Assembly: GCA_949299135.1 (NCBI GenBank)
Contig: CASFZG010000016.1
Coordinates: 1 to 64,000 of the forward strand
Reading direction: 5' to 3'
Length of the DNA stretch: 64,000 bases
DNA from: an uncultured Phascolarctobacterium sp.
GTDB lineage: Bacteria > Bacillota > Negativicutes > Acidaminococcales > Acidaminococcaceae
Shown in pieces: positions 55,450-60,058 of the stretch. The notes below the pieces were generated by a model that was not told where the DNA came from, did not search any database, and saw only the letters and a list, made by a program, of their open reading frames with translations. Each line of letters starts with the position of its first letter. Position 1 is the stretch's first letter. The position numbers were made by a program, and so were the translations under genes.

Positions 55450-56072
55450 TCAAGGTCTCAGTTTTTCCATTTCCAGACGTACCTGGTACATCTGGTCTTC
55501 GGTAATGCCAAGCTGTGTGGCAACTGCATCCCAATCAGTTGCGGGCGGGTTGTGCATTTCAACAATCTGCGCCGGGGTGCTATCAACACTGCGTGTGCAA
55601 CATCGCCCATGCCAAAGTTCTGTTCAAACAGCGGCAGGCTTACGGCGGTGTCAACGCCAAGCACGGTGCTTAAATATTCGGCGTCGTTTTTATCGTGCGC
55701 GGCTTTAATGTCGTTAGGGGTCAGCCCCAGCATATATTCAACGCGCGGCCATCTGTTGTATTCGGTTTTCAAATCAAGCACGGCGCCCATGTCCTTACCG
55801 GTGGCATAGCTTAAAAAGGCAGCGTGGCGCAGTTCTTTAAAGCCCCAGCCCTGGTTGTAAAATTTTTTAACGGTGCTTTCAGCTACGCCAAAGCGTGCGC
55901 TGATGGAATCAATTTCGTTATCAATGCGTACCTGATGCGGCACAAGCCCTTCGCGTGCAGCGGGGCGCGGCGGCAGCGGTTTTGCTTCGGCGGTGCTGCT
56001 TAAAATATCGGTAGTAAAAGGTGCAGCAACAATGCCAAAGGCGAGTGCGAGAGTTAATAAGGATTTTTTCAT
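55450..56072 (-). pseudogene. Secreted repeat protein with a one-base frameshift
   Basis: From ATG 56072 the frame reads a signal peptide (residues 1-30, ending STAEA), then about 130 residues to GDVAHAV, after which it changes into Arg-rich sequence and stops at 55458. Shifting frame at about 55585-55590 restores DSTPAQIVEMHNPPATDWDA and LGITEDQMYQVRLEMEKLRP, ending at 55450: one base is missing. The repaired protein is about 207 residues. It holds two related ~60-residue units (RFGVAESTVKKFYNQGWGF and VLGVDTAVSLPLFEQNFGMG starts, each ending LGLT/LGIT). No family recognised. Sequencing error or recent mutation cannot be told apart here. Confidence 0.78.
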
Positions 56073-56238: not shown

Positions 56239-56559
56239 TTATACCATTTTTAAAAGCACTATGCCGCTGATCATGGTGGCGATGCCTACAAAGCCGAGCG
56301 GTTTAATCCGCAGGCCGAAAAAGGTTTTATCCACGCAAGTGGTTAAAAGTATGCCCAGTGCGCCCCAGACGGCATACGCGATGCTTAAGTCCAGCGTTAC
56401 CAGCGCTTGTGCCATAAGCAAAAAGGCAACGCCGATAAGTGCCAGTGAGGCAAAGCCGTATTTTTTGTCGGCAAAGCCGTTCGATTTTTTGAGGCAGACG
56501 TTGGCAATTACGTCCGCGATAACGGCGAGAATTATATAAAAAAGTCCTGTCATCTGCAT
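56239..56559 (-). CDS. Small multidrug resistance (SMR) efflux subunit, MdtI-like
   Basis: 106 residues from the ATG at 56559, with AGGGTG 8 bases upstream and one base of separation from the preceding SMR stop. Four hydrophobic helices fill the protein; the EmrE-type glutamate in helix 1 is replaced (YIILAVIADVIANVCLKKSNGF: Asp instead), and helix 3 has SIAYAVWGALGI. In paired SMR systems the two subunits form a heterodimer and one may lack the canonical Glu. Exports cations such as polyamines or quaternary ammonium compounds by inference. Confidence 0.88.
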   Translation of the reverse strand: MQMTGLFYIILAVIADVIANVCLKKSNGFADKKYGFASLALIGVAFLLMAQALVTLDLSIAYAVWGALGILLTTCVDKTFFGLRIKPLGFVGIATMISGIVLLKMV

Positions 56560-56560
56560 T

Positions 56561-56896
56561 TCAATCACACCCTACTTTAAAAGTGCCTTTTTTAATCATT
56601 ACAAGCCCGGCGATGATGACGCCGAAGGCTAAAAGTTTAATGGGCGGCATGGTTTCGTTAAAAATCAGCCAGGCCATTAAAGCCGTGCCCGCAAGGCCAA
56701 GCCCTTCCCAAACGGCGTAGGCGACGCTGATGGGGATTTTTTTTACAGCCTTGCTTAAGCAGAAGTACGAACAGGCCATAGCCGCCAGCATTACGGGGTA
56801 GCCGATAAGCCATTCGTGCGTTACGGAAAACTTCATAAATGTGGTGCCGCTTACTTCCAGCGCGATGGCTGCCAGCAGCATATAGAAATGTTTCAT
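56561..56896 (-). CDS. Small multidrug resistance (SMR) efflux subunit, MdtJ-like
   Basis: 111 residues, four helices. Helix 1 carries the canonical Glu14 (FYMLLAAIALEVSGTTFMK) that binds substrate and protons, and SVAYAVWEGLGL is the SMR signature. RBS AAAGGGTGAA. It is transcribed with the following SMR gene from a MerR-type promoter at 56945-56975. Confidence 0.91.
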   Translation of the reverse strand: MKHFYMLLAAIALEVSGTTFMKFSVTHEWLIGYPVMLAAMACSYFCLSKAVKKIPISVAYAVWEGLGLAGTALMAWLIFNETMPPIKLLAFGVIIAGLVMIKKGTFKVGCD

Positions 56897-56914: not shown

Positions 56915-56943
56915 TTGCGGTAAAACAATTTAACCGCTATAAT
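56915..56943 (+). promoter_or_regulatory. Promoter of the MerR regulator gene
   Basis: TTGCGG (56915-56920), 17-base spacer, TATAAT (56938-56943). Its transcript would start inside the divergent operator, so the regulator probably represses itself. Confidence 0.7.
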
Positions 56944-56944
56944 A

Positions 56945-56975
56945 ATCTTAAAGTATGGTGCTACACCATAGTCAA
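56945..56975 (-). promoter_or_regulatory. MerR-type promoter and operator of the SMR genes
   Basis: On the minus strand TTGACT (plus 56970-56975) and TAAGAT (56945-56950) are 19 bases apart, too long for unaided sigma-70. The spacer holds the palindrome TATGGTG-TAG-CACCATA (56954-56970). A 19-bp spacer with a dyad between -35 and -10 is the classic MerR activator promoter, matching the divergent MerR gene. Confidence 0.88.
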
Positions 56976-56990: not shown

Positions 56991-57803
56991 TTGTCACAAA
57001 GATTTTTAAAAACGGGTGAATTTGCCGCGTTTTGCAATACAACCAAGGATACGCTGTTCCATTACGACGATATCGGGCTGTTAAAGCCGCTGCGCACTGC
57101 GCCCAACGGCTACCGTTATTATTCGCTGAACCAGATTTACATGTTTGACCTGATAACGACGCTGAAGGAACTGGGGCTTTCGCTGGAGCAGATAAAAAAC
57201 TACATGGACAGGCGTGACAGCGACGCTTTTGTTACGCTGTTAAAGGAGCAGGACAAACGCCTGAAGGCGAAAATTGACCAGCTTACGCGCCGACGCAGGC
57301 TTTTGCGCAACACGCTGGCGCAGATGCGGGAATCGTTCGACGTGGAGGAAGACGTAATTACCGTTGAAGAAATGCCGGAGGAGTATTTTATCATCAGCGA
57401 CCCGATTACCAACCAGTCGGAGAAGGAACTGTTTGCGGTGGTAAGCCGCCACTGGGATTACTGCACAAAGCACAACGCCTACGACGATTTTGTCACCGGC
57501 GAGATAATTGCTTACGAAAACATCCAGAACGGCAGTTTCGCCAGCAGCTGGTATTCGTCGCACATTGATAAAAAAATCAAAAGCCGCTACCTGCACATTA
57601 AACCGGCGGGCAACTATGCCACCAAGTACATCCGCTGCTCGTATTACGGGCTGAAGGAGGAATACCGCAAGTTCTGCGAGGAAGTGGCGGCAATGGGCTG
57701 TAAAATTTGCGGCGATATTTACCAGAACGACATTACCAATTACCTGTCCGAGCGTTATGCGGACGATTATTTAATGAGGCTTGAGGTGCGCGTGGAGCGT
57801 TGA
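56991..57803 (+). CDS. MerR-family transcriptional regulator with effector domain
   Basis: 270 residues from TTG 56991 (AAGGGG upstream); longer frames would start inside the operator. N-terminal MerR helix-turn-helix (about 1-70: KTGEFAAFCNTTKDTLFHYDDIGLLKP), a dimerisation coiled coil (about 75-115), and a C-terminal domain (about 120-270) reminiscent of GyrI-like multidrug-binding domains (BmrR/TipA type). Probably senses a toxic organic cation and activates the divergent SMR genes. Its stop is 7 bases before the next gene, so the pseudo-ATPase is likely in the same transcript. Confidence 0.87.
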   Translation: MSQRFLKTGEFAAFCNTTKDTLFHYDDIGLLKPLRTAPNGYRYYSLNQIYMFDLITTLKELGLSLEQIKNYMDRRDSDAFVTLLKEQDKRLKAKIDQLTRRRRLLRNTLAQMRESFDVEEDVITVEEMPEEYFIISDPITNQSEKELFAVVSRHWDYCTKHNAYDDFVTGEIIAYENIQNGSFASSWYSSHIDKKIKSRYLHIKPAGNYATKYIRCSYYGLKEEYRKFCEEVAAMGCKICGDIYQNDITNYLSERYADDYLMRLEVRVER

Positions 57804-57810
57804 GGTTATG

Positions 57811-59379
57811 ATGACGGATAAAAAAGATTTACGCAAAAATTTAAATATCTGCCTGCTGCTGACGCTGCTTTTATGCGTGCTGGCGGTTTTGCCGCTGTTT
57901 GCGCCGCAGGCGGATTGGCGTTTGAATGCAGCAATTTTTGGCGGACAAGTTGTACTTGTGCTGCCGCTGCTATATTACGCCAAAGCTGTTTTGCGCAGGG
58001 GCAGGCAGCTTTTGTTCGGCGGTGTGCCTGCTATGGAAGGGCTGGCGTTTGCAGCGTGCGTGGCGGGGCTGATTGGCAGTTTTGCCGTTGGCATAAGCGC
58101 GTTGCAGGGCGGTGTGGCGCTTAATGGTTTGCTTTTTGCGCCGCTGGCGCTGATATTGTTTTTAATTTTTGCTGCGGCGTATTTTAAAACGCAAAGCGGT
58201 TGGGCAAACGCAGAAGCTGACGAAGTTTTAACGCCGGACGGAACAGCGGCGGTACTGCTGCCTGCGGTGTTTGCACTGGCATTGGCGGCGGCGCTAAGCT
58301 GGTGGTTCCGCGGCTGGGGTGCGGCAGCGGCGTGGCAGGTGCCGGGCAGCGTGCTGTTGGCAGCCGGTGCGGGCGTATTTATGCTGGGCGGCAGTTTGCC
58401 TTTATATTACGCATCGCGCCGTGCGGAAAAATGCGGCTTTGCGTTTACTGATAAATTAGCGGCTGAAAATTGCCGCCGCATAACTATGGCAGTATTTGAT
58501 GAAAGTTTTGCTAAAACAGATGAGCAGGAAATTACAGATGTTACCGGCGTTGCCATCAGCGAAGCGCAGCTTTTGGCACTTGCTGCAAGCGTTATGAGTG
58601 CTGCGGGCGACCCGTTGGCGGAATTGTTTAAGGAAAAAGCGGCGGGTATGGAACTGCCGGTATGCAGCGGTGTGCTTAAAATGCGCGGCGGCGTTACGGC
58701 GCAGTGCAGCCGCAAAAATATCCGCCTGGGGCAGCTTGCTTTTGTGTTAAGCGTGGCAACGGTGCCCGTGCAGTACATAAAAATGGGCGACGAACTGGCG
58801 GCGCAGGGCAAAACGGTGCTTTATGTAACCGGCGGCAGGTCGCTGCTGGGCGTTATCGCCGTGGGGCAGCGCGTTAATACAGGCATTGTACCTGCACTGG
58901 CAGAACTGCGTGCTTTGGGCGTGCGTACTGTTATGTTTGCCGCTGGCAATAAGCAGGCGGCGGAATACAACGGCAGCAAAGCCGGTTTTGCACAGACGGT
59001 GGCAGAGTTGACTGAAGCGCACCAGCAGGAACTGACCGATGCTTTTTGCCGTGCCGGTGAATTTGTGGCAGTGTTAAAACGCGGCGAAGGTTCGCAGGTA
59101 ACTGCTGCGCTGTACAATCAGGCAGCGGCAGAGTGCGGCAGCATTGTGCTTAATGACGGCAATATCGCCAATCTGGCGCAAGCCGTAAAATTGAGTGCAA
59201 ACCTGCAAAAAATTAACGGGCTGAATATTAAAATTGCGCTGTGGCTGGGTACGCTGTGGGCGGTAATGGCGGCGTGCGGCTGGCAGCTGCTGTTTAAAAC
59301 CGTTCTGCCCGGAGCGGTGCTGGCAGGTATGCTGGTGTTATCCGCCTTGGCGGTGTGGCTGAACAGCAAACGGATTTAA
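57811..59379 (+). CDS. Degenerate P-type (P1B-like) ATPase, probably not catalytic
   Basis: 522 residues from ATG 57811 (GAGG 5 bases upstream; ATG 57808 is too close). The layout follows CopA-type ATPases: paired helices (about 10-30, 38-60), M1-M2 (70-125), M3-M4 (140-205), a cytoplasmic P/N-like part and M5-M6 ending AVLAGMLVLSALAVWLNSKRI. But the actuator domain between M2 and M3 is reduced to about 20 residues, the CPC helix reads FMLGG, DKTGT reads D230-ESFA, HP reads DP, TGDN reads AAGN (377-380) and GDGIND reads GEGSQV. Only the phosphorylatable Asp remains. The frame is intact, so it is probably a functional pseudoenzyme. Expressed with the MerR gene. Confidence 0.82.
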   Translation: MTDKKDLRKNLNICLLLTLLLCVLAVLPLFAPQADWRLNAAIFGGQVVLVLPLLYYAKAVLRRGRQLLFGGVPAMEGLAFAACVAGLIGSFAVGISALQGGVALNGLLFAPLALILFLIFAAAYFKTQSGWANAEADEVLTPDGTAAVLLPAVFALALAAALSWWFRGWGAAAAWQVPGSVLLAAGAGVFMLGGSLPLYYASRRAEKCGFAFTDKLAAENCRRITMAVFDESFAKTDEQEITDVTGVAISEAQLLALAASVMSAAGDPLAELFKEKAAGMELPVCSGVLKMRGGVTAQCSRKNIRLGQLAFVLSVATVPVQYIKMGDELAAQGKTVLYVTGGRSLLGVIAVGQRVNTGIVPALAELRALGVRTVMFAAGNKQAAEYNGSKAGFAQTVAELTEAHQQELTDAFCRAGEFVAVLKRGEGSQVTAALYNQAAAECGSIVLNDGNIANLAQAVKLSANLQKINGLNIKIALWLGTLWAVMAACGWQLLFKTVLPGAVLAGMLVLSALAVWLNSKRI

Positions 59380-59451
59380 AGCAAACTGCTGTGGGTAAAA
59401 CCATGGCAGTTTTTAATTTTGAATAGAAAAAATAAAAAACTTTTTAAAATT

Positions 59452-59494
59452 TTAGCACTCACCTATTGACAGTGCTAACAACAAGTGGTATATT
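59452..59494 (+). promoter_or_regulatory. CIRCE operator and promoter of hsp20
   Basis: TTAGCACTC-N9-CAGTGCTAA (59452-59478) is the HrcA-binding CIRCE element with one mismatch to consensus in the right arm. It overlaps the promoter TTGACA (59466-59471), 17-base spacer, TATATT (59489-59494). HrcA would repress until heat shock. Confidence 0.92.
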
Positions 59495-59608: not shown

Positions 59609-60058
59609 ATGTTGTTACCTACTATTTTTGGAGAAAACTTATTCGACGATTTTATGGACGATAATTTTGAAAGGAACTTCTTCGGCAGCAGGAACCCGCT
59701 GTATGGCAAACACAGCAAAAACCTGATGAAAACCGACGTTAAAGAAACCGATAACGGTTATGAGCTTGACATCGACCTGCCGGGCTTTAAAAAAGATGAA
59801 ATCACGGCTCATCTGGAAGATGGTTATTTGACCGTATCGGCTGCCAAAGGCGTTGATAAGGACGAAAAAGATAAAGAAGGCCGTTATATCCGCCGTGAGC
59901 GTTACAGCGGCAGCATGACGAGAAGCTTCTATGTCGGCAACGCTGTTACCGAACAGGATATCAAAGCCAAATACGAAGACGGTATTCTGAGCCTGAGCAT
60001 TCCTAAAAAAGACCCGAAAGCCGTTGAAGCTAAAAAATACATCGCCATCGAAGGCTGA
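59609..60058 (+). CDS. Small heat-shock protein (Hsp20/alpha-crystallin family)
   Basis: 149 residues. Alpha-crystallin domain about 40-135 (VKETDNGYELDIDLPGFKKDEITAHLEDGYLTVSA ... EDGILSLSIPKK, with the conserved A-x-x-x-n-G-v-L-type ending). Binds unfolding proteins without ATP. RBS GAAAGGAAG. Controlled by CIRCE, unusual for Hsp20 outside Firmicutes. Confidence 0.95.
   Translation: MLLPTIFGENLFDDFMDDNFERNFFGSRNPLYGKHSKNLMKTDVKETDNGYELDIDLPGFKKDEITAHLEDGYLTVSAAKGVDKDEKDKEGRYIRRERYSGSMTRSFYVGNAVTEQDIKAKYEDGILSLSIPKKDPKAVEAKKYIAIEG

Follow-up and report, generated by a model that had tools for sequence, protein, structure and literature searches.

The window, by which we mean the whole stretch of 64,000 nucleotides of DNA from an uncultured Phascolarctobacterium sp. 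that was analysed, harbors a gene for a protein of 522 amino acids with homology to P1B-type ATPases. It is located downstream of a gene for a BmrR-like MerR regulator, and a pair of SMR efflux genes is oriented divergently (Table 1). As had been noted from the sequence, the reading frame is uninterrupted over all 522 codons. Coding on the opposite strand was rejected, since only short frames are present there.

The regulator contains both a MerR HTH and a BmrR-like effector domain (PF13411, 1.8e-14; full-length match to BmrR over residues 2–268, 1.4e-11). Four bases separate its stop codon from the ATG at 57808. The adjoining MerR gene and the divergent SMR pair, which the sequence-only reading had pointed out, were confirmed.

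Table 1. Position of the genes, signals and protein segments described in the text (residue numbers refer to the 522-residue protein).
Feature	Position	Strand	Remarks
SMR efflux subunit, MdtI-like	56239..56568	-	profile matches
SMR efflux subunit, MdtJ/EbrB-like	56561..56896	-	profile matches
Promoter-like TTGCGG-17-TATAAT for the MerR and predicted pseudo-ATPase genes	56915..56943	+	read from consensus
Divergent promoter TTGACT-19-TAAGAT	56945..56975	-	read from consensus; spacer holds the dyad; reads into the SMR pair
Dyad TATGGTG-CTA-CACCATA	56954..56970	.	from sequence; perfect, 7 bp; probable MerR operator
BmrR-like MerR regulator	56991..57803	+	same operon as the predicted pseudo-ATPase; probable TTG start at 56991; longest ORF from 56955
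Predicted pseudo-P1B-ATPase	57811..59379	+	522 aa; in-frame ATG also at 57808
Linker at actuator (TGES) position of intact relatives, res. 131-143	58201..58239	+	least conserved region; pLDDT about 51
M4 segment AAGAG, res. 184-188	58360..58374	+	alignment; spans CPC metal-site position
Phosphorylation loop, Asp230	58498..58512	+	alignment; Asp kept, KTGT replaced by ESFA
N-domain, res. 238-355	58522..58875	+	ATP-site residues mostly lost; clade-specific Cys285, Cys299, Gly342-Arg343
TGDN position, now AAGN, res. 377-380	58939..58950	+	alignment
GDGxND position, now KRGEGS, res. 423-428	59077..59094	+	alignment
Terminator-like hairpin directly 3' of the predicted pseudo-ATPase gene	59383..59412	+	from sequence

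A long spacer, as seen in the promoter reading into the SMR genes, is typical of MerR-activated promoters. The divergent region is highly conserved, and promoter and dyad are kept in all five genomes of the genus in which the gene was found. For the plus-strand promoter-like element the −10 sequence is kept in the five genomes and the −35 sequence is exact in four. The gene order SMR-SMR-MerR-pseudo-ATPase-Hsp20 is likewise the same in 5/5 genomes, and among 59 genomes of the family orthologues of the MerR and SMR genes (at least 70% identity) occur in those five only.

We rejected the Hsp20 gene (59609–60058) as a member of the operon, since the terminator and a separate promoter with a CIRCE element intervene. 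This element (TTAGCACTC-N9-CAGTGCTAA, one mismatch, 59452–59478) overlaps a TTGACA-17-TATATT promoter upstream of the Hsp20 gene, which is consequently predicted to be under HrcA-type heat-shock control. On the other side of the locus the minus strand encodes a secreted-looking protein of 204 amino acids (55458–56072; AEAKPLPPRPAAREG...) with no Pfam match and a dN/dS of 0.34–0.38 between genomes. In the isolate Phascolarctobacterium sp. ET69, one of the five genomes holding the gene, an insertion of two ORFs resembling a transposase pair separates the APC transporter gene from this region (L033:4253–5610).

Lost domain, lost motifs and predicted fold

The homology of the 522-residue protein to P1B ATPases is well above chance (TIGR01525, E 4.6e-17), and CopA structures in the PDB match it at 6e-13. 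With PF00702 only 26.0 bits were reached, slightly below the cut-off of the profile, while the PF00122 profile (actuator/TM) gave no match and the HMA domain is absent from the protein.

Losses of motifs were read from an alignment of the protein to intact relatives. In this alignment the actuator domain of about 115 residues is reduced to a linker of about 13 residues. Besides CPC in M4, the metal ligands YN in M5 and MxxSS in M6 are lost. The DKTGT position reads DESFA, DEGFA or DEALA in the orthologues of the genus, with Asp as the only retained residue. Among the ATP-binding motifs of the N-domain, HP is changed to DP and GxG to RGG. The Asn of TGDN is retained in the window protein, but not in genomes G001 and G005. 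The sequence-only reading had described a missing actuator domain and replacement of CPC, KTGT, TGDN and GDGxND, with Asp230 kept; all of this agrees with the alignment, which leaves Asp230 and scattered residues only. Its statement that HP is lost has to be modified: the Pro (Pro268) is invariant, and the His is replaced by Asp in the window protein but still present in G001.

An AlphaFold2 model based on 18 alignment rows, including P1B homologues, had a pLDDT of 85.4 and a pTM of 0.76. The Legionella copper ATPase 3rfu is its best structural relative (Z 28.9 over 505 residues), the top structural ranks are occupied by P1B ATPases and KdpB, and Foldseek matched the model to 4bbj at 6e-21. 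In the model the P1B fold is complete except for the A domain: the six core TM helices, MA/MB and the N/P head are all present. Together with the TIGR01525 and CopA matches it supports the earlier view that the P1B membrane plan is retained. A control model from the five orthologues only, with no canonical rows, was poor (pLDDT 48), which means that confidence in the fold depends on the P1B homologues in the alignment; use of the P1B rows is, judged by the sequence matches, independently justified. The refuting outcome named by the sequence-only reading, a structure prediction without a P-ATPase fold, was thus not obtained with the deep alignment.

Orthologues in the genus and in the family

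Full-length open orthologues with the same losses are present at the same place in four other genomes of the genus, with about 94, 91, 58 and 56% identity to the window protein. Orthologues with intact motifs, which would have spoken for a local decay, were thus not found among these close relatives (4/4 share the losses), and decay in one single genome was rejected. In G004, the remaining genome of the six from this genus, the entire region is missing together with the flanking Hsp20 and APC genes. We rejected its use as a natural knockout, because an assembly gap is probable, and consider it uninformative on gene loss.

None of the five frames contains a stop, and 42% of the positions are invariant. 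Comparison of the window gene to the four orthologues gave dN/dS values of 0.134 (95% CI 0.08–0.19), 0.188, 0.225 and 0.322. The upper bootstrap bounds were 0.19–0.41, and dS reached 1.6. Absence of purifying selection is therefore excluded (dN/dS 0.13–0.33), and selection acts on the protein itself. In the five orthologues M3-M4 (60% invariant), MB (49%), M5-M6 (47%) and the N-domain (45%) are most conserved, the linker at the place of the actuator (15%) and the M1-M2 part (21%) least. In the three closest genomes dN/dS was 0.13–0.19 for the pseudo-ATPase gene versus 0.00–0.11 for the MerR, SMR and Hsp20 genes. The faster evolution compared to the neighbouring genes means that constraint is partly relaxed.

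Relatives were surveyed in 59 genomes of Acidaminococcaceae (genera are numbered, g1 being the genus of the window). The nearest relatives form one paralogue clade restricted to this family, separated from the canonical CopA1 with a support of 100/100, to which we gave the name CopA2. Six genera show differing kinds of loss within the clade. In g5 TGES is degraded (TGEV), together with CPS and SGGN; in g10 the catalytic Asp is changed to Gly and TGES to TGSS or TGNS; in g8 the catalytic Asp is changed to Ala. In g13 and g18 the actuator domain is incomplete or absent, but DKTGT is retained in all members other than that of G077 (SETGT). In g1 nearly all motifs are gone. Every pump motif is present in the CopA2 orthologue of G006, a single sampled genome. 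The earlier interpretation as a maintained pseudoenzyme is supported, with an amendment: the window protein does not stand alone, but is the most reduced form seen in a family-wide clade, of which one distant orthologue from another genus keeps all motifs.

The PF00122 match declines within the clade from 6.7e-58 (G006) to 5.2e-10 over half the length (G022, which retains the second half of the domain) and then to none. A single clade of the actuator-less members was not rejected (p-AU 0.205); in the unconstrained tree they are separated and have long branches. Copies from g13 and g10 are under purifying selection, and CopA2 members of other genera that lost motifs also have dN/dS values of 0.10–0.33, the range found within g13. 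The only g13 member without DKTGT (L058 in G077, Asp changed to Ser) has also lost GDGxND, and this is a recent independent loss. The genes in G006, G009 and G022 are located near rpsI, those in G022 and g13 near serC/DUF1015 (neighbours named by eye from the sequence), and the gene order shared by several loci supports orthology.

The N-domain of the clade has traits that are missing in CopA1, namely an xGRxL element and one or both of two cysteines, at LPxC (Cys285) and at xxC (Cys299). Of the genera compared, g5 and g8 have lost Cys299, and g1, g2, g10, g13 and g18 retain it. By comparison of these sequences, the clade-wide N-domain features outlast catalysis and predate the genus. A sample of 250 genomes of the class gave no sign of a wider spread; matches from outside the family (E 1e-25) have frames of 743–1026 amino acids, which in length correspond to full pumps.

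A different reduction was observed in three genomes of genus g15, in which the nucleotide-binding N-domain (about 110 amino acids) is cleanly deleted from a CopA of 613–616 amino acids (L126, G019 C9, frame from L126:2060; L127, minus strand; G034 C112). In both genomes read, HMA, TGES, CPC, DKTGT, SGDK and GDGVND are intact, and dN/dS between two of the genes is 0.09.

A maintained protein with a predicted loss of the pump cycle

Considering the shared losses, the open frames, the dN/dS values and the fold, which support the maintained pseudoenzyme proposed by the sequence-only reading, we estimate a probability of about 75% that the product of the gene is a maintained pseudo-P-type ATPase. 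The protein would descend from a copper-type P1B pump through the Acidaminococcaceae-specific paralogue CopA2 and would retain a transmembrane scaffold with a folded N/P head in the cytosol. A pump cycle should be impossible, since there is no actuator to dephosphorylate the protein, and the residues for Mg binding and phosphoryl transfer around the Asp are gone, as are the metal ligands of M4–M6, while the ATP site is degraded. From family knowledge we infer that the Post-Albers cycle cannot run without TGES, KTGT and GDGxND. An intact CopA of 868 amino acids is encoded elsewhere in the same genome, so that the cell would not require the window protein for pumping.

As to its role, the product is most probably a non-pumping membrane protein, made together with a drug-sensing regulator of the BmrR type. 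A ligand or partner would bind through the membrane part, of which M3-M4 and MB are most conserved, and the clade-specific N-domain, and binding would then modulate either the MerR protein or the SMR pair next to it. Such a partner or sensor role in the MerR/SMR module is tentatively suggested by the place of the gene in the operon and by the conserved synteny, but the link may also be plain co-location. Similarly speculative is the view that an ion pump was converted to a membrane receptor or accessory subunit, with its cycle removed stepwise across the family under continued selection on the membrane core and the clade-specific N-domain, and was in this genus wired into the MerR/SMR module as co-regulator or efflux partner.

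It is also quite conceivable that the pseudoenzyme has a more general role in the membrane (binding of metals or drugs, chaperoning of membrane proteins, or a partnership with CopA) and that its position in the operon is incidental; this concerns only the role. Relatives read in g2, g5, g13 and g18 lie elsewhere (rpsI or serC/DUF1015), not beside MerR/SMR genes, so that any ancestral role was not tied to that module, and the N-domain features Cys285, Cys299 and GR are older than the genus. A general role does not account for a module that is kept in 5/5 genomes of the genus, with MerR and SMR orthologues co-occurring exactly with the gene in the sampled genomes.

We consider it improbable that the gene is a slowly decaying pseudogene, i.e., a redundant second CopA with a frame still open by chance. 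Its faster evolution compared to the neighbours would be in agreement with decay, as would the loss of catalytic motifs in several genera, the internal stop in one g13 copy from a fragmented genome, and the presence of the intact CopA. However, five frames stayed open despite a dS of up to 1.6, the operon signals are conserved, and dN/dS is far below 1 in every pair, including the M3-M4, N and P2 parts, and likewise in g13 and g10. A reduced but active enzyme that uses Asp230 and the P-domain for phosphoryl transfer of the HAD type (phosphatase or autophosphorylation) without transport is very unlikely: Asp230 and the adjoining Glu231 are invariant in 5/5 genomes, and g13 proteins with DKTGT, TGDN and GDGDND but no A domain are a plausible active intermediate, yet HAD chemistry needs motif II and III residues and an acidic Mg-binding pair, all of which are replaced, and even within the genus the GDGxND loop varies.

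In these data one lineage covers a range of states, with an intact pump at one end and a protein devoid of both actuator and motifs at the other, each kept under selection. Such a natural series lends itself to the question of which functions the scaffold of a pump can have when it no longer pumps. Such genes may carry an annotation as metal ATPase, although they should not transport.

Comparison with known systems

To our knowledge, P-type ATPases are regarded as machines that cannot do without their catalytic core. Word searches of part of the literature revealed no inactive or domain-less P-type ATPase: a word search of a review on P-type ATPases (PMC10654040) found no inactive member, and one of a pseudoenzyme review from 2023 (PMC10211241) found no mention of ATPases or transporters. 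Pseudoenzymes as a kind are already known, while an actuator-less, motif-less P1B variant is not found described in the literature searched.

With the P1B copper ATPases (CopA; LpCopA 3rfu, A. fulgidus CopA, ATP7B) the window protein has the membrane plan, the MB kink motif FGGVP and the N/P head in common, but it lacks the actuator, HMA, CPC, KTGT, TGDN and GDGxND and comprises 522 compared to about 740–870 amino acids. The G006 CopA2 (L006, 742 amino acids, other genus) is 35% identical to it over residues 136–520 and shares the cysteines equivalent to Cys285 and Cys299, the xGRxL element of the N-domain and the 100/100 clade; unlike the window protein it has all pump motifs intact, and it is the sole CopA-type pump found in G006. 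The g13/g18 relatives (about 14 intact frames and one with a stop, 592–663 amino acids) belong to the same clade and, like the window protein, have no complete actuator and lost CPC, but they retain DKTGT in all genomes but G077 and GDGxND in most, and reside in another genomic neighbourhood. Pseudoenzymes in general (reviews PMC5106787 and PMC10211241) provide a precedent in kind: an enzyme fold that is selected without its catalytic residues, as is probably the case here.
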